From Ornithinimicrobium cerasi (GTDB taxonomy: Bacteria; Actinomycetota; Actinomycetes; Actinomycetales; Dermatophilaceae), in the NCBI RefSeq assembly GCF_003702705.1, contig NZ_QZMN01000006.1, forward strand, positions 184,667 to 248,666: a stretch of 64,000 nt of DNA, read 5' to 3'. Shown one piece after another: positions 2,020 to 64,000 of the stretch. Each line of letters starts with the position of its first letter. Positions within the stretch are counted from its first letter, which is position 1. The notes beneath the pieces are model-generated. The model saw only the letters and a program-made list of their open reading frames with translations, was not told the DNA's origin and did no database searches. The position numbers and the translations under genes are program-made.

Positions 2020-3159
2020 TCACATGGCCCTCCCCAGCGAGCGACGCAGCAGCCAGCCCCCGGCGAGGAGCACGGCGGCCGCCATCGCGGCGAGCACCCC
2101 GAGCTGCGGCAGCACGTCGAGGACGCCGCCGCCGCGCCGCTGGATCTCCGCGAGAGCCTCGTAGGCCCAGCCGTGCGGCGTCGCCATGGCGACCGTCCGC
2201 AGCCCCTCGGGGAAGAACTCCAGCGGGACCATGCAGCCGCCGAGCGCCGCGAGGATCAGCCCCCCGCCGACACCGATACCGCTGGCCAGCCCGTCCGAGT
2301 CGACGACCACGCCGATGACGAGGGCGACCCCGGCGGCGACCAGGCCGAAGAGCGCCAGCACGGTGAGGACGGCGCCCAGGTCACCCCAGCGCACGTCGAA
2401 GAGGAGGCTGCTGGCGACCATGATGTAGGCGCCCTGGAAGACCGCGATGACGAAGCGGCCCAGCGCCAGCCCGGCCACCGCCTGGGTGCTCGTGATGGGC
2501 GCCGCCATCGTCCGGCGGATCGCCCCCGACCGGCGCGCGTTGATCATCGCGCTCGCCGCGGTGAGGGTGTTGAGGAAGACGAAGAGCAGCAGCTGCCCGC
2601 CGGCCCCGATCTCGAACCGCCCCATCGCGGCGAACTCCTCCATCACCGGGTCGGTGCCGCCGACCTCGACGCCGGCCGCGGACCAGCCGTCCGGAGCCCC
2701 GTCCAGGGCGGCCGCCGCCTGCTCGGGCGAGAGCCCCGCACCGGTCAGGACGTCCTCCTGGGCGCGGGCGACCGTCACCCGGTCCGCGGCGCTGCGGACC
2801 AGCTGCCCCAGCCCCGCGGCCGTCTGCTCGTCGGCGACCACGAGGTCGAGCTGCAGCGGCTCGGCCGAGCGGACGACGATACCGACGTCGGCGGTGCCCA
2901 CGCTCACCAGCTCCTCCACGGTGGCGGCCTCGGCGTGCCGGGAGGTGTCGAGGTCGATGGTGGCCAGCTCCGCCTCGAGCGCCGCCACCGTGCCGGCGTC
3001 GCCGCTGAGGGCGACCTGGGCGGTCCCGCCCCCGCCGCCGGACTGCAGGCCGAGGACGACGACGAGGACCATGGGCAGGACCAGCACGAAGAAGAGGTTG
3101 AGCCGGTCGGCGAGGAACCGCCGCAGCTCGAGCACGGCGAGGGCGACGACGGATCTCAC
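2020..3159 (-). CDS. ABC-2 type exporter permease (second subunit)
   Basis: 379 aa. The N-terminal membrane segment (about 18-38) is followed by a large extracytoplasmic loop (about 40-190) and then five hydrophobic segments to the end, the usual ABC2_membrane_3 layout. The GTG start at 3159 overlaps the stop codon of the preceding permease (GTGA), so the two are translationally coupled. A much longer reading frame continues upstream, but that part is the antisense shadow of the neighbouring gene. With 3156-4331 it probably forms a heterodimeric membrane pore driven by the ATPase at 4334-5317. The substrate is unknown; close families export drugs or lipids. Confidence 0.88.
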   Translation of the reverse strand: MRSVVALAVLELRRFLADRLNLFFVLVLPMVLVVVLGLQSGGGGGTAQVALSGDAGTVAALEAELATIDLDTSRHAEAATVEELVSVGTADVGIVVRSAEPLQLDLVVADEQTAAGLGQLVRSAADRVTVARAQEDVLTGAGLSPEQAAAALDGAPDGWSAAGVEVGGTDPVMEEFAAMGRFEIGAGGQLLLFVFLNTLTAASAMINARRSGAIRRTMAAPITSTQAVAGLALGRFVIAVFQGAYIMVASSLLFDVRWGDLGAVLTVLALFGLVAAGVALVIGVVVDSDGLASGIGVGGGLILAALGGCMVPLEFFPEGLRTVAMATPHGWAYEALAEIQRRGGGVLDVLPQLGVLAAMAAAVLLAGGWLLRRSLGRAM

Positions 3160-4331
3160 AGCGCGTCCTTCCGGCCCGGCACCAGCCGGGCGAGCACGAG
3201 GATGACCAGCGTGAAGGCGAGCAGGGTGAGCAGGACCGGCGCGAGGTCGGGTATGCCGCCGCCGCCCGCCGTGATCCCCAGCCCGCGCACGAGGGCCGCG
3301 ACCGGGTTGACCTGCAGCAGCGTCCCGACCAGGCCGTCGGTCGGCACCCGGAAGAAGGTGCCGCCGGTGACCCCGAGCGAGATCGCGATGACCGACATGA
3401 GCAGGCTGGCCTGCTCGGCCGTCCGGGCGTAGCGGACCACGAGCGCGATGACCGACGTGGCGGCGGCCACGGTGGCGACGACGAGCACGAGCACCGCCGG
3501 CCACCAGCCGAAGTCGACGCCGTCGAAGAGCAGCTGGCCGGAGGCGAGCAGGACACTCGTGGAGACCGTCCCCAGGATCAGCCCGACGACCGCCTTGGCG
3601 AACGGGATCTGCCAGGCCGGGATCGGCATCGTGCGCAGCCGCGGGAGGGTGCCCCACTCCCGCTCGGTGAGCAGGGCCAGCACGGCGAACCCGACGGTGA
3701 AGAAGAGGAACATCCCGGCCTGACCGGCGACGATGCCCCCGGCGAGACCGAGCTGCTCGCCGGCCACCGTGCGCTCGGCCCACTCGACCTGGGGGGCCGC
3801 GGCGGCGAGGTCGGCGGCCAGCGCCCCCAGGGCCGCCTCGTCCAGACCCGCCCCCGCGGCGCCGGCCACGGTCGCCGCGTCGGCGTCCAGCCGCTGGACG
3901 GTGGCGGTGACGATGCCGGAGACGACGTCCGCCGCGAGGCCGGTGTCCGCGCCCTGGGCCAGCTCCACGCGGGCGCCCTCGCCCGCCGCCACCGCCGCGC
4001 CGAAGCCCTCAGGCACGGTCACGCCCAGGTCCGCCTCCCCGGAGGCGACGAGGTCGGCCACCTCGCCCGGGCCGGCCTCGAGGACGGTGACCGGGATGCC
4101 CTGGTCGGCGAGCGCCCCCAGGGTGCCGACCACGGCGTCGGCGGCGGGGTCGCCGGTCGGGGCCGACACCACCACCGCGACCTCCCCCAGCTGGGGGTCG
4201 TCGAGGCCGGAGAAGGCGAGGTTGAAGACGTAGGACAGCGCGAACGGGATGAGCAGGCCGAAGAGGAGCACCGAGCGGTCGCTGACGTGCTGGCGCAGGT
4301 CGCGGGCGACGAGGACGAGGAGGGTGCGCAT
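3156..4331 (-). CDS. ABC-2 type exporter permease (first subunit)
   Basis: 391 aa, with the same architecture as its downstream partner: one N-terminal membrane segment (about 20-40), a long soluble loop (to about 190), then a C-terminal bundle of five to six membrane helices. The ATG at 4331 lies 2 bp after the stop of the ATP-binding protein gene. The paired permeases differ in sequence, pointing to an obligate heterodimer rather than a recent duplication. The protein family is recognised; the cargo is not. Confidence 0.88.
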   Translation of the reverse strand: MRTLLVLVARDLRQHVSDRSVLLFGLLIPFALSYVFNLAFSGLDDPQLGEVAVVVSAPTGDPAADAVVGTLGALADQGIPVTVLEAGPGEVADLVASGEADLGVTVPEGFGAAVAAGEGARVELAQGADTGLAADVVSGIVTATVQRLDADAATVAGAAGAGLDEAALGALAADLAAAAPQVEWAERTVAGEQLGLAGGIVAGQAGMFLFFTVGFAVLALLTEREWGTLPRLRTMPIPAWQIPFAKAVVGLILGTVSTSVLLASGQLLFDGVDFGWWPAVLVLVVATVAAATSVIALVVRYARTAEQASLLMSVIAISLGVTGGTFFRVPTDGLVGTLLQVNPVAALVRGLGITAGGGGIPDLAPVLLTLLAFTLVILVLARLVPGRKDAL

Positions 4332-30214: not shown

Positions 30215-30301
30215 TGGTGCGCGAGGGGGGAGTTGAACCCCCACGTCCTTTCGGACACACGGACCTGAACCGTGCGCGTCTGCCTATTCCGCCACTCGCG
30301 C
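30215..30301 (-). tRNA. tRNA-Leu (anticodon CAG)
   Basis: The acceptor arms GCGCGAG (30295-30301) and CTCGCGC (30219-30225) pair exactly. The long variable arm (TCCGAAAGGA) marks a class II tRNA, the T-loop TTCAACT is present, and the anticodon loop carries CAG. The 3' ACCA is encoded (30215-30218), so CCA is genomic. It reads the frequent CUG codon. Confidence 0.95.
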
Positions 30302-52699: not shown

Positions 52700-54484
52700 A
52701 TGGCCGCCCGGAGCACCACGAACGGCAACGGCGGGGCACGCGGCTGGGCGCGCTTCCTGCCGGGGGTGGAGGTGCTGCGCCACTACGAGCGGGGGTGGCT
52801 GCGCGGGGACGTCCTGGCGGGGGTGACCGTCGCGGCATACCTCGTCCCGCAGGTGCTCGCGTATGCCGAGGTCGCCGGCCTCCCGCCCGTCACCGGGCTC
52901 TGGGCGGTCCTTCCCGGACTGCTCGTGTATGCGGTGCTCGGCACCTCCCGCCAGCTCTCGGTCGGTCCGGAGTCGACGACCGCGCTGATGACCGCCGCCG
53001 GCGTCGCGGCCATCGTGGCGGCCGGGGCGGGGTCGGTCGGGGCCTCCGACGTGGCCGCGCTCATGGCGGTCGCCGTGGGGCTGCTGTGCCTCCTGGGCTT
53101 CCTCTTCCGCCTCGGCTTCCTCGCGGAGCTGCTGTCCAAGCCGGTCCTCGTGGGCTACATGGCCGGGATCGCGGTCCTCATGGTGCTCAGCCAGCTCGAC
53201 GAGATCATGGGGATCGAGGTCGAGGGGAGCCTCGGCGGGCTGTGGTTCGCCGTGGTCCACCTGACGGACGCGCACGTGCCGACCCTGACGCTGGCGCTGA
53301 CGACAGTGGTCGTGCTGCTCGCCTTCCAGCGGTATGCCCGCCGCTGGCCCGGCCCGCTCATCGCGATGCTCGCGGCCGCCGCGGTGGTGCAGCTCCTCGA
53401 CCTCACCACGCAGGGGATCCGCCTCGTCGGCGAGGTGCCACGCGGCCTGCCGGACGTCCGGGTGCCCCAGGTGGCGTCGGTCGACCTGTGGCAGCTCCTG
53501 CCGGCGGCGCTCGGGGTGGCGGTCGTCGCCTACTCCGACAACATCCTCACCGGCCGGGCCTTCGCGCTGAGGCGGCGGGAGGAGATCGACAGCAACCAGG
53601 AGCTCCTCGCACTCGGTGGTGCGAACGTCGCCGCCGGCCTCATCCAGGGCTTCCCGGTCAGCTCGAGCGGGAGCCGCACCGCGATCGCCGACAGCATGGG
53701 CGCGCGGACGCAACTGCACTCGCTGGTGTCGATGGCGCTCGTCCTGGCGACCCTGCTCTGGCTGGGGCCGGTCCTCGCCACCTTCCCCAAGGCGGCGCTC
53801 GGCGGGGTCGTCGTGTATGCCGCGATCCGCCTCGTCGACATCGGCGAGTTCCGGCGGTTCGCCTCCTTCCGCGACAGCGAGCTCGCCCTGGCCCTCGTGA
53901 CGACGGTCGCGGTGCTGACGCTCGGCGTGCTGGGCGGGATCGGTGCCGCGATCACGCTGTCGCTGCTCGACCTGCTGCGGAGGATCGTCAAACCCCACGA
54001 CGGCGTCCTCGGCTACGTCCCCGGCGTCGCCGGCATGCACGACATCGACGACTACCCCGACGCGGTGCAGGTGCCGGGGCTCGTGGTCTACCGCTACGAC
54101 TCGCCGCTGTTCTTCGCCAACTCCGCCAACTTCCTGACACGTGCGCTGGACAGCGTGAAGCAGGCGCAGGAGCAGGGACCGGTCTACTGGCTGCTGCTCA
54201 ACGTCGAGGCGAACACGGAGGTGGATCTGACGGCGGTCGACGCCCTCGACTCGCTGCGCCTCACCCTGGACGACCTGGGCGTCGAGCTCGCGCTCGCCCG
54301 CGTCAAGCAGGACCTCCGTGTGCCCCTCGCCGCGACCGGGTTCCTGGACCGGGTCGGGGAGGACCGCGTCTTCCCCACGCTGCCGACCGCCGTCGCCGGG
54401 TATGCCGCGTGGTACGAGTCAAGGCACGGTGAGCCGCCGCCGGGACTGACCATCCCGCCGCCCCCGTGGCCGCCCGTCCTGTGA
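52700..54484 (+). CDS. SulP (SLC26) anion transporter
   Basis: 594 aa. The transmembrane domain spans about 30-430, with the family signature YLVPQVLAYAEVAGLPPVTGLWAVLPG (core VPQVLAYAEVAGLPP) and GVVVYAAIRLVDIGEF. A C-terminal STAS domain (about 450-575) follows, with LNVEANTEVDLTAVDAL. It transports sulfate, bicarbonate or another anion. The ATG has an AGGAGAG site. The final Pro-rich tail is short. Confidence 0.93.
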   Translation: MAARSTTNGNGGARGWARFLPGVEVLRHYERGWLRGDVLAGVTVAAYLVPQVLAYAEVAGLPPVTGLWAVLPGLLVYAVLGTSRQLSVGPESTTALMTAAGVAAIVAAGAGSVGASDVAALMAVAVGLLCLLGFLFRLGFLAELLSKPVLVGYMAGIAVLMVLSQLDEIMGIEVEGSLGGLWFAVVHLTDAHVPTLTLALTTVVVLLAFQRYARRWPGPLIAMLAAAAVVQLLDLTTQGIRLVGEVPRGLPDVRVPQVASVDLWQLLPAALGVAVVAYSDNILTGRAFALRRREEIDSNQELLALGGANVAAGLIQGFPVSSSGSRTAIADSMGARTQLHSLVSMALVLATLLWLGPVLATFPKAALGGVVVYAAIRLVDIGEFRRFASFRDSELALALVTTVAVLTLGVLGGIGAAITLSLLDLLRRIVKPHDGVLGYVPGVAGMHDIDDYPDAVQVPGLVVYRYDSPLFFANSANFLTRALDSVKQAQEQGPVYWLLLNVEANTEVDLTAVDALDSLRLTLDDLGVELALARVKQDLRVPLAATGFLDRVGEDRVFPTLPTAVAGYAAWYESRHGEPPPGLTIPPPPWPPVL

Positions 54485-54521
54485 CGTCCGAGGTGGTGAC
54501 GGCGGTGGGATAGTTGGGGGC

Positions 54522-55424
54522 ATGTCCTCGCCGTCCGCGGACAGGTCCGCACAGGTGGTCGCCGTCGTCGGAGCCACCGGTCGTCAGGGTTCTGCGGTCG
54601 TCAGGCACCTCCTCCGGGAGGGGTGGGCGGTGCGGGCTCTCACGAGGAACCCCGCGAGCGAGACCGCGCGATCGCTGCAGGCGGGCGGGGCCTCGCTGGT
54701 CACGGTCGACGCGGAGGACGTCGGCACCCTGCTGACGGCCTTCGATGGCGCGTACGGGGTGTTCAACGTGCAGAACCCGATGACCGTGGGGATCGACGGC
54801 GAGCTGCGGCAGGGGGCGAACGTCGCGACGGCCGCTGCCCGGTGCGGCGTGCAGCACGTGGTCTACGGCGCGGCGGGGATCGGCCCGGGGAGGACCGGGG
54901 TCGGGTCCTGGGATTCCAAGAACACGGTGGCGGAGCACTTCCGCCGGCAGGGCGTCCCGCTGACCGTCCTGCGTCCGATGGCGTTCATGGAGCTGATGAC
55001 GGATCGTGCCTACTACCCGGCGGTCTCGGTCTGGCACGTGATGCCCAGGCTCATGGGAGGGGACCGGCCGGTGGGCTGGCTGTGCACGGACGATCTCGGT
55101 GCCGTGGCCGCCCGTGTGTTCGCCGCACCCCGGCGATGGGTCGACACCGACCTGACCCTGGTCGCCGACGTCCGGACGATCGACGAGTGCCGGGCGCTGT
55201 GGGCCGAGCTGCACGGCCGCGCGCGCCGCTCGTTCCCCATGCCGGTCTGGCTGTTCGAACGGTTCGTGGGCACCGACCTGACCACGATGTGGAGGTGGCT
55301 GCGGACTGCGCAGTTCGAGATGTCGACCGCGACCACGCGCGAGATCCTGCCTGAGGCCCGGACCGTGCGGGAGTGGCTGGCGGCTCTTGACGGCGATGCC
55401 CGTGCGGAGGACATTCGGGGATGA
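54522..55424 (+). CDS. NmrA-family NAD(P)-binding protein
   Basis: 300 aa, an atypical short-chain dehydrogenase. The dinucleotide motif GATGRQGSAVVRHLL lies at residues 18-32, and the NmrA pattern YGVFNVQNP, HVVYGAAG and PMAFMELM follows. The active-site Tyr of true reductases is not obvious, as expected for NmrA-like redox sensors. It is transcribed in the same direction as the SulP gene 37 bp earlier. Confidence 0.9.
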   Translation: MSSPSADRSAQVVAVVGATGRQGSAVVRHLLREGWAVRALTRNPASETARSLQAGGASLVTVDAEDVGTLLTAFDGAYGVFNVQNPMTVGIDGELRQGANVATAAARCGVQHVVYGAAGIGPGRTGVGSWDSKNTVAEHFRRQGVPLTVLRPMAFMELMTDRAYYPAVSVWHVMPRLMGGDRPVGWLCTDDLGAVAARVFAAPRRWVDTDLTLVADVRTIDECRALWAELHGRARRSFPMPVWLFERFVGTDLTTMWRWLRTAQFEMSTATTREILPEARTVREWLAALDGDARAEDIRG

Positions 55425-55465
55425 GGACAGGAGGGGCCTGTCCGCATACAAGGAGGTGTGTGTTG

Positions 55466-56137
55466 ATGTCGCAACCACGACGGGCGGGAACCATGGTGGC
55501 GTGCCTGACGCTGCTTGCTGTGGGAGTCAGCCCAGCGGCCGCCGACCCGCCGACCACGGTCGTCGTCGATGACGTCTGGGCCACGATCGCCGACGGCACC
55601 AACGACCTGGTGGCGTTCGTCAACACCACCCGCGACGACTTCTGCACCGACGAGATGGTGGCCGCGGAGAACGCCTTCCGCGAGTGGGTGCTCGGTGGGG
55701 AGGTCGGAGACCCGCCGGAGTTCCCCGTGGTGGTCTCGGCGACGCCTGTCACCATCACCGAGAAGAACGTCGGGTCCGGCAACATCAGGGTGTCGTGGGA
55801 CGCCACGGTGCCGGTCGAGCTCTGGACCTTCGAGGAGGGCAAGTCACCGTCGCTGGGCAACATCTGGTCACCCTGCATCGACACCGACGGACTCGTCGAC
55901 GGGACGGACACGGCCATCGCGGCGGGAGAGCTGTTCGCGGAGGGGACGGGCCAGTGGTCGTTCAAGGACAACGACGCCCAGGCCAGCGGCCCCCGCGCGA
56001 ACATCTGGGGTGACCGGATCACCGCCTCGGTCTCGGGGCCGACCGGCGACTACTCCTACACCGTGGTGTTCAAGAACCAGATCCGCGACTTCGAGTACGT
56101 GAAGGGGTCCGCGACCTTCTCCCTCAAGCCCCGCTGA
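55466..56137 (+). CDS. Secreted protein, hypothetical
   Basis: 223 aa. A signal peptide ends near residue 27 (LLAVGVSPAAA-DPP), and the mature domain is acidic, with two Cys that could form a disulfide. No family recognised. A strong AAGGAGG site lies 9 nt upstream of the ATG at 55466. It is the last typical chromosomal gene before the island boundary. Confidence 0.78.
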   Translation: MSQPRRAGTMVACLTLLAVGVSPAAADPPTTVVVDDVWATIADGTNDLVAFVNTTRDDFCTDEMVAAENAFREWVLGGEVGDPPEFPVVVSATPVTITEKNVGSGNIRVSWDATVPVELWTFEEGKSPSLGNIWSPCIDTDGLVDGTDTAIAAGELFAEGTGQWSFKDNDAQASGPRANIWGDRITASVSGPTGDYSYTVVFKNQIRDFEYVKGSATFSLKPR

Positions 56138-56142
56138 CCACA

Positions 56143-56176
56143 AGAGGCCCCTCCCGGCTGAGCGGGAGGGGCCTCT
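56143..56176. terminator. Bidirectional hairpin terminator at the island boundary
   Basis: A 14-bp stem (56143-56156 with 56163-56176, left arm AGAGGCCCCTCCCG) with a 6-nt loop. It ends the secreted-protein gene (+) and sits where the terminator of the original tRNA-Ala (-) would be. Confidence 0.85.
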
Positions 56177-56184
56177 GACCTGGG

Positions 56185-56226
56185 TGGAGGCGAGGGGACT
56201 CGAACCCCTAACCCCCTGCTTGCAAA
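56185..56226 (-). pseudogene. 3' half of tRNA-Ala(TGC), integration-site remnant
   Basis: On the minus strand the sequence runs from the anticodon loop TTTGCAA through stem GCAGG, the variable region, T-stem AGGGG, T-loop TTCGAGT, CCCCT and acceptor CGCCTCC with discriminator A. Nothing matching the 5' half follows: beyond 56226 the anticodon stem should continue with GCAGG on the plus strand but reads GTCCA instead. The remnant is what is left when an integrative element recombines into the anticodon loop of a tRNA gene; the complete gene would be restored at the far end. Confidence 0.88.
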
Positions 56227-56235
56227 GTCCACGGA

Positions 56236-56332
56236 TGGGGTACGCAACGACGCATCCCTGCAGGTCAGGGCGTTGCAGAGCACACCGGATCGCGTCGATT
56301 GCGTACCCCACTGCAGTACTTTCTGGGGTACG
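56236..56332. repeat. GGGGTAC inverted and direct repeats, candidate integrase arm sites
   Basis: TGGGGTACGCAA (56236-56247) and its exact inverse TTGCGTACCCCA (56299-56310) are 51 bp apart, and a third TGGGGTACG follows at 56324-56332. Placed 10 to 106 bp inside the tRNA junction, they fit the arm-type binding sites of a tyrosine recombinase. Confidence 0.7.
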
Positions 56333-56893
56333 GTCCGCGTGCGTGGGTGACGAAGCGGAGGGCCATCATCACGGCCCCGGGAGCGACCACGACTTGGCGC
56401 CGTCTCCTGCCCATCTGTGGAGTGCCGTCGATGCGGCGTCCAAGTGGGGCTCAGCGCCCGGAGGGCGCGACAGCGGACGCTTCGATGACTGGACGTTGTC
56501 CAACTCCAAGCATCCGTCTCGACGTCCGACCACACGCCAGTGGTGCGTCACTTCGCCCAGAATGGGTCACCGTCGCGTCCGGTGGTTTCACGCACCCCAA
56601 GGGCCTCCGCCACACCGGAGGGTCGTGACATCGCGACTCCGCCGATGAGCGGACGAGTGCTCCGCGCTCCTTCGCCACCTCGAAGATGCCGATGACGGAG
56701 CATCGCCGAACGCGAACAGGACTGATGTACCCGAATGCAGCACACGCGCTATGAACCTCCCTCCCTTCGGTCGTCCGGGTTAGCTTGATGGTGGTAGGAC
56801 GCGACGATGGGAGGATGCGGGCGTGGTCATCAAGGGCGATGACTGAGCCAGCGCTGCGGCGCGGGATCGGAACAACCTAAGGACGGGCTTAGC
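56333..56893. other. Gene-poor stretch before the caspase-helicase gene
   Basis: About 560 bp. Open frames on both strands here are short and match no protein I recognise. The last part probably carries the promoter of the gene starting at 56894, but no clear -35/-10 pair is visible. Confidence 0.5.
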
Positions 56894-59800
56894 ATGCTGC
56901 GGGCACTTTGTATTGGGATCGACGCATACCCGACGCCGATCAACCGCTTGTCTTGCTGTGTTGCTGATGCGACAGCGATTGGAAGTCTGCTGCTGGATAC
57001 GCACGGCGCCGGAGTGACTCTGCTGACTAACGCAAGCGCCACCCTTGACGGCATCCGCGGAGAACTCGGGGCACTGGCCGCCTGCGACGAAGACGACCTC
57101 GTCGTGGTGTCCTTCTCCGGACACGGCACGCCTGATCACGCCCTCGTGCCAGTCGACGCGGATGTGTTCGACCTGGCTGCCTCGTGTATGCCGCTCGATG
57201 AGTTGGCGCACCACCTCGATCGCATTCCGAGCAAGAACCTCGTGGTTATCCTTGACTGCTGCTTCTCGGGCGGCTTCGGGGGTGCACGAGTTTTTGCGCC
57301 GACCGCAAAGCGGCAGGTCGCCGAGGACCGCACAACGCTGCAGACGATGGTGCGCGGAGAGGGCCGGGTCGTCTTAACCGCTTCGGGAGCATCCGAGCCG
57401 GCGTTAGAGACGGCGGCCTTTGGCCATGGGCTGCTGTCGTATCACCTGATAGAGGGTTTGCAGGGTGTTGAGGGTCTTGCATCCGATGGCCTGATCGACC
57501 TCATGGGTCTGCTGCGATGGACCGTCGCCAAAGTCATTGAGAGCGCCAAACTCATCAACGAGGTTCAGACGCCGACGATCTACGGCTCGTTCGAGGGTTC
57601 ACCCGCCGTCGAAGCCCTGCGGCCGGGCACCGCATACGCGGCGGCCTTCCCAGAGCGCGTCACGGCCCCGGTCACTGCTGAGTGGCAGACGCTCAAGCCG
57701 TACGGGCTCAGCGAGCAGTTGATCGATGCGTGGACGACGTCGATGCCCGCCGGCCTCAACGAACTTCAGCAGGCCGCCATCAATGACTTTGGCGTTCTCA
57801 GCGGCAAGTCGGTGTTTGTCGTGGCGCCGACTGGATCGGGGAAGACACTGATCGGCGAGATCGCCGCCATCCAACAGGCGTTGACTGGCGGTCGCTCGGT
57901 CATGCTTCTACCTCTGCGCGCCCTCGTTAACGATAAGTTCGCGTACTTCGAACGTGTTTACGGTGACCGGCTCAGGGTTATCCGCGCCTCAGGCGAGTAC
58001 AGTGACCAGACCGCTGACCTCTACTCCGGTCACTACGACATCGCGTTGCTGACTTACGAGAAGTTCTTGAATATCGCCGTCGGCACCCCTTATGTCATGC
58101 GCTCGGTCTCAAGTGTCGTCATCGATGAAGTCCAGAATATCTCTGACCCGAATCGAGGGGCTTCGCTTGAGTTCCTGATCACGCTGCTGCGATCGGGGCA
58201 CGCTCGGGGTTCCGCTGTCCAGGTCATCGCGCTATCCGCAGTCGTTGGCGACACCAACGGGTTCGAGCAATGGCTGAACGCTGGGCTGCTCAAGACGGGA
58301 CACCGGCCGGTGCCGCTTCGTGAGTCCGTCCTCAACGGGCACGGCAATGCGGCGCACCACCACCCCGATGGCACGACGTCTGAGGAACGGTTCGTCGAGC
58401 CTGCCTTCGTGCCAGGCGGCGGCGGAAGCAAGCAGATCGTTATACCTCTGGTCAAGCGACTGGTTGACGAGGGCAAGAAAGCTATAGTATTCCGGGCGAC
58501 CAAGGGAGAGACGGAGGGTACGGCCGTTTATCTCGGGCGCTACCTTGGTCTCGCCTCCGCTGACTCAGCGTTGGGCGCGTTGCCAGCCGGTGACCTATCG
58601 GCCTCCTCGCGGGCTCTGCGCCAGTCTCTCGCGCAAGGTGTTGGTTTTCACAACTCCGACCTCGATCGTGACGAGCGGGCTGCCCTGGAGCGCGCCTTCA
58701 GAGATAAAGACTCAGACCTTCGAGTGCTCGTGTCGACGACCACCCTTGCGATGGGTGTCAACACTCCAGCCGAGGCGGTAGTGATAGCTGGCCTGCAGCA
58801 CCCTCAATCAAATCCCTATTCCGTGGCCGAGTACAAGAACATGGCGGGTCGTGCCGGTCGGCCGGGCTTCGCCGATGCTGGCGAGTCGTACATCGTCGCT
58901 ACAAGCCGCCCATCGCCAACTGAGGCGTGGCACCAGTATGTCCTAGGAACCCCGGAGCCTATCAAGTCTCACTTCCTCGGCGCGAACACCGATCCTCAGA
59001 CGATCATCGTTAGAGCCCTGACGGCTCTGGGCCGCTCCGTTGAGGAAAGGGAGCTCGTCGATCTTCTCGAGAACAGTTACGCCGTCTGGCACCTCAAGCA
59101 CGTCGGTCAGACAGATGGGTGGGACACAAACCAGCTCCGACGTGATCTCCAAGCATTGATCAACGCGGGCTTGATCGACCGCGAACCAACGGGCGCCATC
59201 ACACTCACAGCGCTTGGCCAATTCGCCGGGGAATCCGGTCTTGAAGTGCGATCCGTGGAACGAGTGTCGTCGGCGCTCCGCTTCATCGGAGAAAGGATCG
59301 ACCTCTCCGACCTGATTTTGTTGTCGCAAGTTACGGTTGAGCTGGATGACGTATACGTGCCCCGCAACAAGCGTTCACACCAAGAGATGCAGCGCTGGCC
59401 GAACACGCTGCTGCAGTTGGGCTGCTCGGTCAATCTAGTTCGCAATCTCCACATCGGAGGTGGCGATTCCACCGCCAGAGCCAAGCGCGCGGTCGCCGCT
59501 CTGAGATTCACCAGCTCAATGCCGCTCCAAGGTATCGAGGGCGAATTGACCCAACACATGCGCGAGTCGAGCATCGCGGGGCCCATCCGTGCGGCTGCAC
59601 AGCGCACGCGTGATGTGATCGCTTCCGTCAGCCAGATTGCCACGCTGCAGGGGCACCAACTATCAGATGAAGACATTGCCGATGTCGCGGTGGTGCTCCT
59701 CGAGACGGGTGCTCCGCGCGAGCTTGCGGGCTTGGCGATAAAGGCCGGATCGCGACTGACTCGTGCGGATTATCTGGAACTGCTAGGCGCTGGTGTGCGC

Positions 59801-59902
59801 AACCCGAGTGACTTTCTCGCCATGCCCGAACTAGAGATGCAAGAACTGCTTGGCGAAGAGCTCACGGCCGAGATGCGAGACATCCTTTTATCCGGCGACT
59901 AA
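56894..59902 (+). CDS. Caspase-like protease fused to a Ski2/Hel308-type helicase
   Basis: 1002 aa. Residues 1 to about 245 are a peptidase C14 (caspase/metacaspase-like) domain, with His77 in SFSGHG and Cys123 in DCCFSGG. Residues about 285-680 are an SF2 helicase core with APTGSGKT (311-318), DEVQ (411-414), SAV (448-450) and AGRAGRPG (651-658). A winged-helix region follows (about 700-790), then a helical domain and a C-terminal helix-hairpin-helix (LELLGAGVRNPSDFLAM, about 966-982), the full Hel308 layout. The natural reading is that the helicase senses abnormal nucleic acid and releases the protease to cut host or phage proteins. The domains are certain; the function is inferred. It lies on an island, which supports a defence role. 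Confidence 0.93.
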   Translation: MLRALCIGIDAYPTPINRLSCCVADATAIGSLLLDTHGAGVTLLTNASATLDGIRGELGALAACDEDDLVVVSFSGHGTPDHALVPVDADVFDLAASCMPLDELAHHLDRIPSKNLVVILDCCFSGGFGGARVFAPTAKRQVAEDRTTLQTMVRGEGRVVLTASGASEPALETAAFGHGLLSYHLIEGLQGVEGLASDGLIDLMGLLRWTVAKVIESAKLINEVQTPTIYGSFEGSPAVEALRPGTAYAAAFPERVTAPVTAEWQTLKPYGLSEQLIDAWTTSMPAGLNELQQAAINDFGVLSGKSVFVVAPTGSGKTLIGEIAAIQQALTGGRSVMLLPLRALVNDKFAYFERVYGDRLRVIRASGEYSDQTADLYSGHYDIALLTYEKFLNIAVGTPYVMRSVSSVVIDEVQNISDPNRGASLEFLITLLRSGHARGSAVQVIALSAVVGDTNGFEQWLNAGLLKTGHRPVPLRESVLNGHGNAAHHHPDGTTSEERFVEPAFVPGGGGSKQIVIPLVKRLVDEGKKAIVFRATKGETEGTAVYLGRYLGLASADSALGALPAGDLSASSRALRQSLAQGVGFHNSDLDRDERAALERAFRDKDSDLRVLVSTTTLAMGVNTPAEAVVIAGLQHPQSNPYSVAEYKNMAGRAGRPGFADAGESYIVATSRPSPTEAWHQYVLGTPEPIKSHFLGANTDPQTIIVRALTALGRSVEERELVDLLENSYAVWHLKHVGQTDGWDTNQLRRDLQALINAGLIDREPTGAITLTALGQFAGESGLEVRSVERVSSALRFIGERIDLSDLILLSQVTVELDDVYVPRNKRSHQEMQRWPNTLLQLGCSVNLVRNLHIGGGDSTARAKRAVAALRFTSSMPLQGIEGELTQHMRESSIAGPIRAAAQRTRDVIASVSQIATLQGHQLSDEDIADVAVVLLETGAPRELAGLAIKAGSRLTRADYLELLGAGVRNPSDFLAMPELEMQELLGEELTAEMRDILLSGD

Positions 59903-60365
59903 CTCACTTATGTGACCTACCTAGCAGCAACGTCCCGCGGCCATTCTCTTGAGCCATTGCTGAGTACATGGCTGCCTGTCTCGGGAGTTCAGCATTTGCG
60001 CTTGTTTACGGCTAGCCTGCCATACACGGTGTCCAGCCACTCGTACAGCCGGAGTCTCCTCCAACCGGCGCGAGAGCCGCAACCACAGCGAGCGCTCGGT
60101 CCTCCATATGGGACTCCCGTTGATCAATCCGGACGTACCGTTGCGGTCGCGCAGCGTCTGACGGCTCGCGTGGTGGCGGGGAAGGCTGCTGGCCCGTCCG
60201 CACTTGGTGGCGTGCGGCCAATGAGCCAGCGCCTGGGGCGCACGCGCTCTTCTGGGACCGACAGGCCCTTGACTGGGAACCCCTCGCGGTGAGAATTCCA
60301 GCTGCCCGGTTCGACGGCAGACCCATGAGCAACCGACTAACGATCCGAGGTATAGGGTCGCTCGC
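59903..60365. other. Intergenic stretch after the caspase-helicase gene
   Basis: 463 bp. Open frames exist on both strands (59912-60292 plus and 59921-60499 minus) but neither has protein-like composition or a family match, and the minus one overlaps the start of the next real gene. The promoter of 60366 is probably at the right end. Confidence 0.5.
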
Positions 60366-61049
60366 GTGACATTCCCTGAAGCTGTCCCGAGTGGCATTTC
60401 GTTCCCAGGAAGACCTACGTACGCTGAACTGCTCGAGAGTGACGAGCGCATCGCGTGGGTCCGTTTCAAAGTCTGGTCCGCGGACTGGTACACCGGCACC
60501 TTGGGCGGTCTGGGCGCAGAGGACGGCTACGACCGGTACATCGGCATCGAGATGGCCCTCGATGGCGCCCTATCGGCGTTGAGCGCTGCGTTCGACGCGG
60601 CAGTGGTGCTAATGATCGAAAGCGCTGAGGAGGCACTTCAGGTGCCCGAGGAGAAGCGTCTGGCCCCTCACAAGTACAACTGGGAAGCTTTCAAGAGAAC
60701 GGTACAGGGTACCCTGCTGACGGCTTCAAATGCCCTGAGCGAGCTGAGCGTCGACGTGGACGACGCTCTGGAGGGCGCAAATAGCGATAATCCGGTCGGC
60801 TGGCTCGCCGTGCTCCGGCGCCTCCGGAATCGGGCAACGCACCGCACCACACTAGCGCGGACATGGGCGATTGATCACGACGCACACATCGTCTTGGGTG
60901 TAACCGAGGTCCCTGAACTTGACCCGTTCGAGTATCTCAAGCTGTCATGTGACCAAGTGTCGGACCTGACGGAGCGCATGCATGGGATCGCGAATCAGTT
61001 TGGCTACGTAGGAGCAAGCACGCCATTAGCACGTACGCGATGGGGCTAG
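60366..61049 (+). CDS. Hypothetical protein with HEPN-like RxxxxH motif
   Basis: 227 aa, helical and soluble. The stretch LAVLRRLRNRATHRTTLAR (149-167) contains R154-NRAT-H159, the RxxxxH pattern of HEPN ribonucleases. Two long helices lie before it (about 62-90 and 105-140), as expected for a HEPN bundle. Overall similarity to a named HEPN family was not recognised. The start is a GTG at 60366. It lies 463 bp downstream of the caspase-helicase gene on the same strand and may be its partner or an independent toxin. Confidence 0.6.
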   Translation: MTFPEAVPSGISFPGRPTYAELLESDERIAWVRFKVWSADWYTGTLGGLGAEDGYDRYIGIEMALDGALSALSAAFDAAVVLMIESAEEALQVPEEKRLAPHKYNWEAFKRTVQGTLLTASNALSELSVDVDDALEGANSDNPVGWLAVLRRLRNRATHRTTLARTWAIDHDAHIVLGVTEVPELDPFEYLKLSCDQVSDLTERMHGIANQFGYVGASTPLARTRWG

Positions 61050-61240
61050 TCGAGCAGCACCCACGGGATCGGTCGTCGTTCGCTCGTTCTCAGTAGGTCG
61101 CGCCGACAAATGATGCGGATCTGTTAGCTCAGAGTCACTGCTGGGGCATTCCACCATGGCGCCTCTGGCAGCCGAGTGGTGGCCCGGTCTGCGCGCCCCA
61201 AGGAGGCATACGACTTTGCCGCCGTGCGCAAAGATGTGGC
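61050..61240. other. Intergenic stretch
   Basis: About 190 bp; no gene, RNA or repeat recognised. Confidence 0.4.
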
Positions 61241-61524
61241 ATGGCTCGAGTGGTCCGGTTCATGTTTGACCACGGACACGTGTGGCCGCTGTGGGAGGAC
61301 GGCACCGACAAGTACGCCATGGAACCCGCCGACTACGGCTTGTCACCTGAACTCACCGAGCGATTGCAGTCCTGTTACGAGTACTGGGGGCCCATCGCAA
61401 CCTTGACGGGCAGTGGGATGCGCCGGAGAACCGTCAGCGCTGGCACGCTGAGACGGACCAAGCCATCGCCATCTTGCGGTGGGAGGTCTCCGACCTCGCA
61501 GACGTCAGAGACGAACGCGACTAA
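61241..61524 (+). pseudogene. Frameshifted small gene
   Basis: The first part in frame from 61241 reads MARVVRFMFDHGHVWPLW...LQSCYEYWG. The second part, HRNLDGQWDAPENRQRWHAE...SDLADVRDERD and a stop at 61524, is in another frame. The break falls at a five-G run (61386-61390); one extra G would join the two parts into a protein of about 94 residues. The family was not recognised. A sequencing error in the G-run is possible. Confidence 0.6.
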
Positions 61525-61594
61525 CCATTCCGTACCCATCCGCCTCTGCCGGGGGTCGGTCGTGTCGATGGGCGGGCGGGTCTAGGTTTGGCGA

Positions 61595-62137
61595 GTGACT
61601 CACGAACTCGGCTTCGCGGAGTATGACCCCAACTGGCCATCACGTTTCGAGCAGTTGCGCATTACACTTCTGACGGATCTTCCGGCGGGTGCCGTGGTTG
61701 AGCACGTGGGCTCCACCGCCGTGCCCGGACTGGCGTCGAAAGACTGCATCGACATCCTTGTGACGGTCCCCTCCGACCACCTGCAGATTGCACTGGCCGG
61801 GCTCACAGCAGCCGGCTTTGAGCACCGACCTACCAGCTTCTCCGAAGACTCGCAGCGGTTCATGCTGCGCCTTCTCGGACCACAACGCCAACGTGTGGCG
61901 CACCTGCACCTGATGGCAGAGGGGCACATCGCCGCCGCCCAAATGGTCGCAGTGCGCGACCTGCTGCGTCGCGACAGGAACTGGCGCGGGCGCTACGCCC
62001 TGATCAAGCGCAGCCTGGCAGACCAGTTTCCTCAGGATCGTCCTAGCTTTCGCGCTGCGTGTCAAGGGCGTGGTTCGGGCGCGTGTGATCGGACGGGCAC
62101 CGCGGGATTCGCTGTGCTCGACGAGGGGTCGCGATGA
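61595..62137 (+). CDS. GrpB/UPF0157 family protein with frameshifted C-terminus
   Basis: 180 aa. The N-terminal two thirds match the GrpB family (EYDPNWPSRFEQL, VEHVGSTAVPGLASKDCIDI, nucleotidyltransferase-like fold). After FPQDR the family continues with LA-A---KG-F-R, which is found in the next frame (LAFALRVKGVVRARVIGRA) from about 62043, so one base appears to have been gained near the CCT at 62041-62043. The encoded tail is therefore abnormal. Possibly a decayed gene, or a sequencing error. Confidence 0.75.
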   Translation: MTHELGFAEYDPNWPSRFEQLRITLLTDLPAGAVVEHVGSTAVPGLASKDCIDILVTVPSDHLQIALAGLTAAGFEHRPTSFSEDSQRFMLRLLGPQRQRVAHLHLMAEGHIAAAQMVAVRDLLRRDRNWRGRYALIKRSLADQFPQDRPSFRAACQGRGSGACDRTGTAGFAVLDEGSR

Positions 62138-62298
62138 GAGGGGGGAAGGGTCGGGGAGTTGGCCGCGCTCAAGAGGCCGCCGAGTTCGGCAGGCTGATCA
62201 GGCGCCGTCAGGCGGCAGGCTTTCGTGTGCGCCGTGAGGGGGGCGGCCCAGCGCGGACGGGCGGCAAGCTAGGTTGCGCCGTCGTGCGGCATAGCTAA
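62134..62298 (+). CDS. Short ORF, possible remnant of an XRE-type regulator
   Basis: 54 aa. EAAEFGRLIRRRQAAGF resembles the first helices of XRE-family HTH proteins, but no recognition helix follows. Its ATG overlaps the preceding stop (ATGA). It lies immediately next to the IS110 end, so it may be a gene cut by the insertion. Weak evidence. Confidence 0.25.
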   Translation: MRGGKGRGVGRAQEAAEFGRLIRRRQAAGFRVRREGGGPARTGGKLGCAVVRHS

Positions 62299-62306
62299 CG
62301 TGGCCG

Positions 62307-63542
62307 TCACCGTCCGCGGCTGAGCCTGCCTCGACGATACGCCTCTTCATCGAAGGGTTGTTGGGTCACCAGCATCCGGTAGGTCAGGCGGCAGGCGTTG
62401 CGGGCCAGGGCGACGCGCGCCTGGATCGGGGCCATGCCGCGGGCGCGCAGCTGGGCGTCGCGTTCGGCGAACGCAGGGGAGAACCGGGACAGGCCCCAGG
62501 CGATGCCCATCAGGGCGTCTCGGTGCTCGGCCAGGCCCTGGCGGGAGATCCGTCCACGTCGTCGCAGGGTCGCGGACTCATACATCGCCGGTGCCAGCCC
62601 GGTCGCCGAGTAGAGGTGCTCGGCGTCGGGGAACCGTGCGATCGGCAGACTGTGCGCGGCGAACGCCGCCGCCCGGACCGTGGCCACGCCGGGCAGGGTG
62701 GTGAGCACCTGGCCGTCGGTGCGCGCCAGCAGTGTCGTGATCTCCTCCTCCAGCACCGTGATGTCAGCCTGCAGAGCGCGGTAGCGCTGCAGGTCCCGGC
62801 CCAGACGGCTGGCGCGTGCCTGCGCGTCCGGTGGCGGAGGCAGACAGCCTTGCCACCTCTGGGCCCAGTAGCGTGCGGTGGCCGGGCTCATCCGGCCCGG
62901 CGACCTGGCGGTCAGGGAACGGGTGGAGGCCGGCCGTCCGGCGAACGCGGCCGCGCAGGCCAGCACGGCCTGCCCGGTCGTTCCTTCGATCGCGAGCGAG
63001 CGGCCGTGCCCGGCCGGTGCCGACAGTCCGGGGACGAGCGCGTTGAGCTGGTCATGCAGCCGTTGCTGCGCCTTCTTGCGGTCCGCGACCAGACCACGTC
63101 GGTGCCGGACCGCGGCGCACAGTTCCTCCACGACCGACTCCTCAGCCTGGGCCCGCCCGCCTCCTTGCCTGGCCAGGTAGGTCAGCGCGGCGCAGTCGCG
63201 GTCATCGGTCTTGAACCGGCCCGACCCCAGCTGGGTGCGTGCCGCCTTGGTCTCCGAGGGAGCGAACAACCGCACCGATCCCGGGTGCAGCCGTTCCAGC
63301 TCGACGGCCCAGGCACGGTGCAGGCTGCCGGTCGCCTCGATCGCGATCACCAGCCCGTCGTGACCGGCCACCTGCGAGCTGACAGTGCTCTCCAGATCCC
63401 CGATCCCGGCGCGCGAGACCGGCATCGACACCGGGTCGGTCACCAACCCAGCACCATCACTAACCCAGACCCGGTTCATCACCTTTCCAGGGTCGATCGC
63501 CACTACCAGAGCTGAAAGGCCCAAGGGCGCCTGAACCAACAT
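62307..63542 (-). CDS. IS110-family transposase
   Basis: 411 aa. The N-terminal DEDD RuvC-like domain has Asp in VVAIDPGK, Glu in VIAIEATG and the DD pair in KTDDRDCAAL. The C-terminal Transposase_20 domain has LTTLPGVATVRAAAF and the Ser-containing ATGLAPAMYESATLRRRG region. The ATG at 63542 has a perfect GGAGGAGG site. Members of IS110 use a bridge RNA from the non-coding end next to the gene. IS ends were not identified, as the family has few or no terminal inverted repeats. Confidence 0.92.
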   Translation of the reverse strand: MLVQAPLGLSALVVAIDPGKVMNRVWVSDGAGLVTDPVSMPVSRAGIGDLESTVSSQVAGHDGLVIAIEATGSLHRAWAVELERLHPGSVRLFAPSETKAARTQLGSGRFKTDDRDCAALTYLARQGGGRAQAEESVVEELCAAVRHRRGLVADRKKAQQRLHDQLNALVPGLSAPAGHGRSLAIEGTTGQAVLACAAAFAGRPASTRSLTARSPGRMSPATARYWAQRWQGCLPPPPDAQARASRLGRDLQRYRALQADITVLEEEITTLLARTDGQVLTTLPGVATVRAAAFAAHSLPIARFPDAEHLYSATGLAPAMYESATLRRRGRISRQGLAEHRDALMGIAWGLSRFSPAFAERDAQLRARGMAPIQARVALARNACRLTYRMLVTQQPFDEEAYRRGRLSRGR

Positions 63543-64000
63543 GACAGACCTCCTCCACCGCACGAACGGCGCTCAGCCCGCGCCACCAGGCGGTGCTCGC
63601 CGGTGATCACGGCAGGCCATCGCCTCGACGGCCCACCATCAGCCTGCGCTCCTCGACGTCAATGTCGTTCATGCTCGCTACGCTGCGCGTGCTCCACATT
63701 GACCTCTCCCACGCTCAGGCCGGTGGCTGGCCGCCTACCGAGGCGATGCCCCATCCATGGCCTATCAGCTACATCGCAGGCAAGGACGCATTCATTCGCG
63801 CGATGACCCAGGCCGCGTGGCCAGCCACTTCAGGCGCACCGATTCCGCCTGAACCAAGCTGATGACGACGGGCCCCGCGGGCACCACCCACTGCATCCGA
63901 CATCCCTCGTAGCCATGCACATACTCTTCTGCCGCGTGGCGCGCTCCGCCGCTCTTGCGTTTTGGGCGGTCGCAGTTCACTTGACCGACCTGCCGCGCAG
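63543..64000. other. Region upstream of the IS110 transposase, with possible PIN relic
   Basis: The first part (63543 to about 63630) may hold the bridge-RNA region of the IS. Beyond it, frames contain ALLDVNVVHA (near 63647) and, shifted, PWPISYIAGKDAFIRAM (near 63755-63805), which resemble the start and end of a PIN/VapC toxin broken by frameshifts. No intact gene is supported. A minus-strand frame at 63792-63980 has no recognised family. Confidence 0.3.

Follow-up and report, generated by a model that had tools for sequence, protein, structure and literature searches.

The DNA considered here is a 64,000-nucleotide window from Ornithinimicrobium cerasi (contig NZ_QZMN01000006.1, positions 184,667 to 248,666), in which a single open reading frame (ORF) at 56894–59902 on the forward strand encodes a caspase–Hel308 fusion protein. 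The frame starts with ATG, has no internal stop, and specifies 1002 amino acids. Its Pfam matches are Peptidase_C14 (residues 3–148, E 3.2e-12), DEAD (290–451, E 1.9e-24), and Helicase_C (580–658, E 1.8e-9). A caspase/metacaspase-like domain, recognised from Pfam, profile matches to metacaspases, and conservation, occupies about residues 1–254 (56894–57655, +). A Hel308-type helicase with Walker A, motif II, and motif VI occupies about residues 262–1002 (57677–59899, +). Caspase and helicase share one ORF in 89 of 91 aligned relatives, so that the fusion is not a product of chance, and the claim of a fusion in a preliminary description of this DNA is confirmed. The structure prediction proposed in that description yields an AlphaFold2 model of the full protein (predicted local distance difference test score, pLDDT, 89.8; predicted template modelling score, pTM, 0.81), whose helicase half has the Hel308 fold.

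In an alignment to plant metacaspase-4, His77 (codon 57122–57124, +) and Cys123 (codon 57260–57262, +) correspond to its His and Cys, and the Ala found at the catalytic position of PDB entry 6w8r aligns with Cys123. The alignment holds no caspase row for two of the 91 relatives (loci L020 and L021), leaving 89 that can be scored for caspase residues. Among these, His77 is present in 89 and Cys123 in 88, and the dyad earlier described as intact is so on both counts. In the predicted structure, the two residues lie at the ends of strands 69–78 and 115–123. A profile built from 50 caspase halves finds 11 solved chains at E ≤ 0.01, namely ten metacaspases, MCA2 (1.1e-7) and metacaspase-4 (5.6e-7) among them, and the uncharacterised GSU0716. 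The dyad and the caspase-type sequence place the domain in the clan CD proteases, with protease activity predicted from sequence. The nearest NCBIfam model is the EACC1-associated caspase (NF047832, 4.8e-21), at 75.2 bits against a cut-off of 140. Among the best 25 PADLOC matches, the caspase half alone matches only the ‘caspase’ model, and the helicase half matches the other models. A structure search with the full model gave no caspase chain among the matches listed, which are filled by helicase chains.

Two further features of the caspase half bear on its likely specificity and activation. Asp25 and Asp121 are invariant (89/89); in metacaspases, such acidic residues select Arg or Lys. Directly after Cys123, residues 125–144 (57266–57325, +) form the sole stretch of at least three residues with pLDDT below 50. 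Within this loop, residue 140 is Arg in 87 of 89 relatives and Lys in the other two. Given its low pLDDT and its conservation, the stretch may be an activation loop that is self-cleaved after residue 140.

The helicase half carries a Walker A motif (APTGSGKT, residues 311–318), motif II (DEVQ, 411–414), and motif VI (GRAGR, 652–656). Family, profile, and structure comparisons show it to be Hel308/Pol-theta-like along its entire length, with a Hel308-type superfamily 2 fold. Its profile matches PDB entry 2zj2 (Hel308) at 4.8e-99 and HamB (8vx9) at 1.4e-32. The protein matches PADLOC HamB1 at 1.1e-25, and Hel308 is far closer by the PDB profile. The Ski2/Hel308 type assigned earlier is thereby narrowed to Hel308/Pol-theta, and the likeness to HamB drawn with it is far more distant. 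For the same reason, the suggestion that a protease here replaces the nuclease HamA is an analogy, not a demonstrated derivation. Motif II of Hel308 is DExH, and 89 of the 91 relatives carry DExQ.

Two peptide patterns drawn from the helicase half served to search 84,980 species genomes for relatives. The scan gave 143 loci that encode a relative, and the best 80 by full-query match were analysed. Both halves lie in one ORF at 78 of these 80, so the domain order for which a search of other genomes had been recommended is widespread. The loci analysed span 13 phylum names, and many come from metagenome-assembled genomes. Among plasmids, 141 records matched, 12 of them over at least 80% of the query. 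Ten of the 12 were used as loci, H5 and H7 being omitted as near-copies (by eye) of H4 and H6. Sixteen phage records matched, none over 80%. Viral contigs hold 12 relatives, of which one is full-length (L129) and lies near a serine-recombinase-like ORF (by eye).

Within the window's own order, 2 of 297 genomes carry the gene, O. cerasi included. Each of 30 re-searched genomes has one match at E ≤ 1e-40. In the O. cerasi genome the window gene is the only full-length match, and four other places match the helicase only, at 31–34% identity. Nine contigs from Bradyrhizobium, Sphingomonas, Rhodopseudomonas, and relatives encode an identical protein over 993 columns, which indicates that the gene moves. 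In a quick LG+G4 tree, from which L020 and L021 were omitted, the window copy clusters with L017, L018, and L019, all from Actinomycetota (Shimodaira–Hasegawa-like approximate likelihood ratio test 100; long branches are flagged, including the window row and L017).

The genes around these relatives are enriched in defence functions. On plasmids, recognisable defence genes occur near 7 of 10 loci (L007, L008, L010, L012, L013, L014, and L016, with L007 and L008 related) versus 1 of 10 controls (L125; Fisher p 0.020, sign test p 0.031). Each control lies roughly across the plasmid from its locus, one being only 13.7 kb long because of the record end, and scoring was unblinded. The count excludes lone toxin–antitoxin genes (controls L122 and L126; L015), an SNF2 helicase (L011), and a GIY-YIG nuclease with a methyltransferase (control L124). 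On chromosomes, the 136 nearest proteins at 20 loci match 175 PADLOC families (E ≤ 1e-15), versus 10 families, seven of them Lamassu, for 140 proteins in 20 control stretches of the same contigs, each separated from its locus by at least 70 kb; these are counts of families and not of proteins, since one protein can match many models. The best 25 of the 175 include Gabija, CBASS, Shango, type I restriction, AriA, LmuA, and SAVED. The 20 loci come from a set of 30, the rest having short contigs or repeating another element. ORFs of 120–700 amino acids were chosen greedily by length, seven per locus and five each at L047 and L092. The set includes adjacent partner genes and some related loci (L027/L034; L076/L077/L079). 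In the window's own clade, L017 adjoins a CBASS cyclase and a two-transmembrane (2TM) effector; elsewhere, L025 has type I restriction genes and PDC-S53 as its immediate neighbours. Short TIR genes are also seen near L007, L008, L037, L072, and L078, with a second small caspase gene as well near L007, L008, and L078; the grouping resembles a TIR–caspase defence module.

A gene of a recurrent family lies within 400 bp of the fusion gene in 46 of 91 relatives (20 of 53 at 80% identity). The earlier label ‘single-gene’ thus suits the window copy and its nearest clade, and not these 46. The partners are DUF2158-like (19), a family of about 200 amino acids (7), nucleotidyltransferase (NTase)-like (6), Mrr (4), DnaQ-BRCT exonuclease (3), and KAP NTPase (3); Tle1-like phospholipase, AbiJ, membrane, C39-like, and 299-amino-acid families are found twice each. 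The confidence of these labels varies. Mrr_cat has Pfam support in 4 of 4 cases, lying upstream in three of them and downstream in the fourth. The DUF2158 label derives from one plasmid annotation (L010) and was extended to 18 others by similarity. The NTase-like label (298 amino acids) was given by eye, L076 having no Pfam, NCBIfam, or PDB match and a weak one to PDC-M21B (3.8e-4), and the C39-like (533 amino acids) and membrane (L009, L042) labels were assigned by eye only.

The family of about 200 amino acids occurs upstream or downstream, and at L059 the candidate defence gene PDC-S54 (2806–4101; PADLOC 3.3e-158) begins with it. A PDC-S54-like gene at L094 (3316–4581) was recognised by its similarity to the L059 gene. 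By eye, PDC-S54 looks like this N-domain joined to a PD-(D/E)xK-like nuclease, the N-domain alone standing beside other caspase–helicases. The nuclease label was itself given by eye, this part having no Pfam match in L059 or L094 and no PDB match for L059. On the tree, partner labels require 14 changes for 11 groups, versus a shuffled mean of 26.4 (L041 and L044 unlabelled, KAP label absent). Partners cluster by clade, with several switches. This recurrence suggests that the protease may work through its partner, which, by analogy with the canu and HamMAB systems, might be activated by cleavage. Pfam, PADLOC, and NCBIfam identify no gene in the 460 bp that follow the window copy, nor in the stretch from 56137 to its start. 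An ORF at 59912–60292 was taken as non-coding, having flat codon-position guanine–cytosine (GC) content and no match in the same three libraries.

The surroundings of the window copy suggest a mobile origin. GC content is 0.60–0.64 across 56–62 kb versus 0.69–0.77 in the other 2-kb bins. At third codon positions (GC3), the fusion gene has 0.71 versus 0.90–0.96 in four of the six left-hand ORFs listed, the remaining two (0.73, 0.79) probably being read in the wrong frame. On both measures the gene looks foreign. At about 56183–56227 (−) lies a 45-nt 3′ piece of tRNA-Ala(TGC), read by eye and probably a copy of an attachment site. A 65-bp sequence here matches G000:C59:19927–19991 at 98%, where ARAGORN finds an intact tRNA-Ala. 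This tRNA is on another contig of the same genome (C59), beside tRNA-Ile; a tyrosine integrase gene lies some 5 kb off, and farther out is one for a TrwC relaxase. The segment G000:C59:9071–16300 (L108), with integrase, TrwC relaxase, and HipA genes, is probably an integrative element. The window's contig (C63) ends where the window ends, and the other end of the island is not on it; plausibly, C59 and C63 belong to one element. Six of 30 further genomes from the genus (G298, G308, G314, G319, G322, and G323) have two matches of at least 50 bp to this tRNA-Ala sequence on one contig, 12–33 kb apart, and G312 has two matches of 36–37 bp, 16 kb apart. These pairs fit an integration hot spot. The description of the island as tRNA-anchored is therefore apt as far as an attachment-site-like fragment beside the gene is concerned, and not for an intact tRNA, the only one that ARAGORN finds in the window being tRNA-Leu at 30215–30301, 26 kb away.

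Other scans of this region gave little. The left-flank gene (55421–56137), used to look for an empty site, matched nothing in any of the five other members of the genus tested. Rfam gave nothing at gathering score across 54000–64000. Promoter-like sites numbered two versus 0.9 ± 0.9 in shuffled sequence, none of them upstream of the fusion gene, and terminator predictions equalled those in shuffles. Further along are a 227-amino-acid gene with an RNxxxH motif (60366–61049, +; by eye), possibly a HEPN ribonuclease and with no Pfam, PADLOC, or NCBIfam match, and a GrpB family gene (61595–62137, +; Pfam) that lies, like the fusion gene, in the low-GC stretch. An IS110-family transposase (62307–63563, −; Pfam) lies near the contig end and may explain the assembly break.

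The family is real, conserved, and mobile, and it is probably anti-phage. We consider it moderately likely that the fusion serves defence, its Hel308/Pol-theta-type helicase recognising abnormal DNA and thereby activating the metacaspase-like protease joined to it. The signal would be single strands, forks, or ends that arise when a phage or plasmid replicates, and ATP-driven movement along such DNA, or assembly on it, would switch the protease on. The protease would probably first cut its own loop after Arg140, and would then cut other proteins after Arg or Lys, leading to growth stop or cell death. Caspases drive cell suicide in animals. In many relatives the target may be the adjacent partner (a nuclease, candidate defence gene, lipase, or other), cut in the manner of an initiator caspase. 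Since no recognisable partner lies within 460 bp, the substrates of the window copy would be host or phage proteins, or a partner encoded elsewhere. A bolder version, which we put forward tentatively, is a bacterial initiator caspase hub, with a Hel308-type DNA sensor, a self-activating metacaspase, and exchangeable effectors (nucleases, lipase, TIR, PDC-S54, and others) that different lineages would have acquired next to it. The window copy would be its stand-alone form, cutting cell proteins directly.

Several observations weigh against a DNA-sensing defence protease. The association with defence islands, proposed earlier as a check, holds for the plasmid and chromosomal relatives; in the window itself, the nine neighbour proteins scanned have no PADLOC match. 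Close relatives L018 and L019 sit among housekeeping-looking genes (Lnt beside L019; others by eye). The window copy has neither a recognisable partner gene nor a known substrate. At the Verrucomicrobial locus L071 (9989–13015), Ser replaces Cys123, so that a probably inactive member exists. In the near-identical L020 and L021, from contigs of metagenome-assembled genomes, caspase and helicase are in separate frames; these are split, decayed, or mis-assembled copies. Ranking by full-length query match favours fusions, and the 80 loci analysed are the best matches among 143. The caspase part is assigned by sequence, and the arguments from the S1 pocket and the loop draw on general knowledge of metacaspases.

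The roles of the two halves might also be reversed, with the caspase as regulator and its self-cut releasing the helicase to attack DNA of the invader or of the host. The EACC1-associated model nearest to the caspase points in this direction, as auto-proteolytic deployment has been proposed there (PMC7159879), and so does the mean conservation of the two RecA domains, which at 0.65–0.68 exceeds that of the caspase (0.51–0.56). However, the C-terminal domain varies in EACC1 systems and is constant here, albeit partly by construction, as the search used helicase peptides. The caspase also scores below the EACC1 model's cut-off, the four upstream ORFs have no NCBIfam match, and the disordered loop lies inside the caspase domain rather than between the halves. 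We regard this arrangement as unlikely. It is quite improbable that the protein serves its carrier alone, as a defence against plasmids and rival elements or as an addiction module that guards its own integrative and conjugative element or plasmid, instead of acting against phages. Full-length members in 12 plasmid records, serine-recombinase-like ORFs within 8 kb of 7 of 53 loci, Trb-like genes near three (by eye), and the attachment-like fragment and integrase/relaxase element in the O. cerasi genome would all suit such a role. Yet the surrounding genes are those of typical phage-defence systems, for which carriage on mobile elements is also usual, and no partner is constant. A DNA-repair helicase whose protease domain gives housekeeping control in a stress or cell-cycle response is very improbable, given the patchy occurrence (2 of 297 genomes in the order), horizontal spread, defence neighbours, and GC and GC3 that are low relative to the host.

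If a helicase sensor does activate its fused caspase, then nucleic-acid sensing and caspase activation would be joined in one protein. Animals split such logic among separate sensors, adaptors, and caspases. Occurring under so many phylum names and with differing partners, the family would lend itself to asking how caspases turned into death switches, and clean mutants can be made at its caspase, Walker A, and loop residues.

The protein joins two known kinds of component, caspase effectors and helicase sensors, the hub caspase being the bolder reading. As stated earlier, it fits no named system: neither PADLOC (best 25 matches) nor a literature search, whose coverage mostly excluded subscription papers and preprints so that a description elsewhere is possible, gave a caspase–helicase defence protein. 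The family is widespread and apparently uncharacterised. The nearest paper among those listed is a 2012 survey that counted a helicase-activity domain in 12 of 671 bacterial metacaspases (PMC3501461); the part of it available gives no family, mechanism, or defence link. Gasdermin had no PADLOC match among the nine neighbours, the reach of the models to distant gasdermins being unchecked.

In EACC1-caspase systems, effector deployment by auto-proteolysis has been proposed (PMC7159879). Like these two-gene systems, the present protein has a related N-terminal caspase and a fused C-terminal domain; unlike them, its helicase is constant and its caspase falls under the family cut-off. No EACC1 gene was recognised, the four upstream ORFs giving no NCBIfam match, with the presence of an EACC1 model in the library unchecked. 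In canu (CanABC), a caspase-family protease encoded in defence islands activates a partner nuclease; its parts are CanA with an Ig-like fold, CanB, and a pro-nuclease (CanC), with no helicase fusion in the portion of the report available (PMC12799240). The defence setting of a caspase-family protease is shared, but here a helicase is fused, and the partners are Mrr, PDC-S54, DnaQ, and others, with none beside the window copy. Neither CanB nor CanC was found among the nine neighbours, which have no PADLOC match and a Pfam nuclease only in the IS110 transposase. In HamMAB, a protease fused to HamA activates a nuclease (PMC12799240). HamA was not found by PADLOC among the nine neighbour proteins (E ≤ 0.1), ORFs in other frames lying outside the scan. 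Like Hachiman and HamMAB, the present family would be a DNA-responding system that contains a helicase coupled to an effector. It differs in being a single protein, with a caspase in place of a trypsin or nuclease and a helicase nearer to Hel308 than to HamB. Hel308 and the helicase of DNA polymerase theta resemble it along the whole helicase half, in the same fold, from which it is set apart by the additional caspase and the DExQ motif II.
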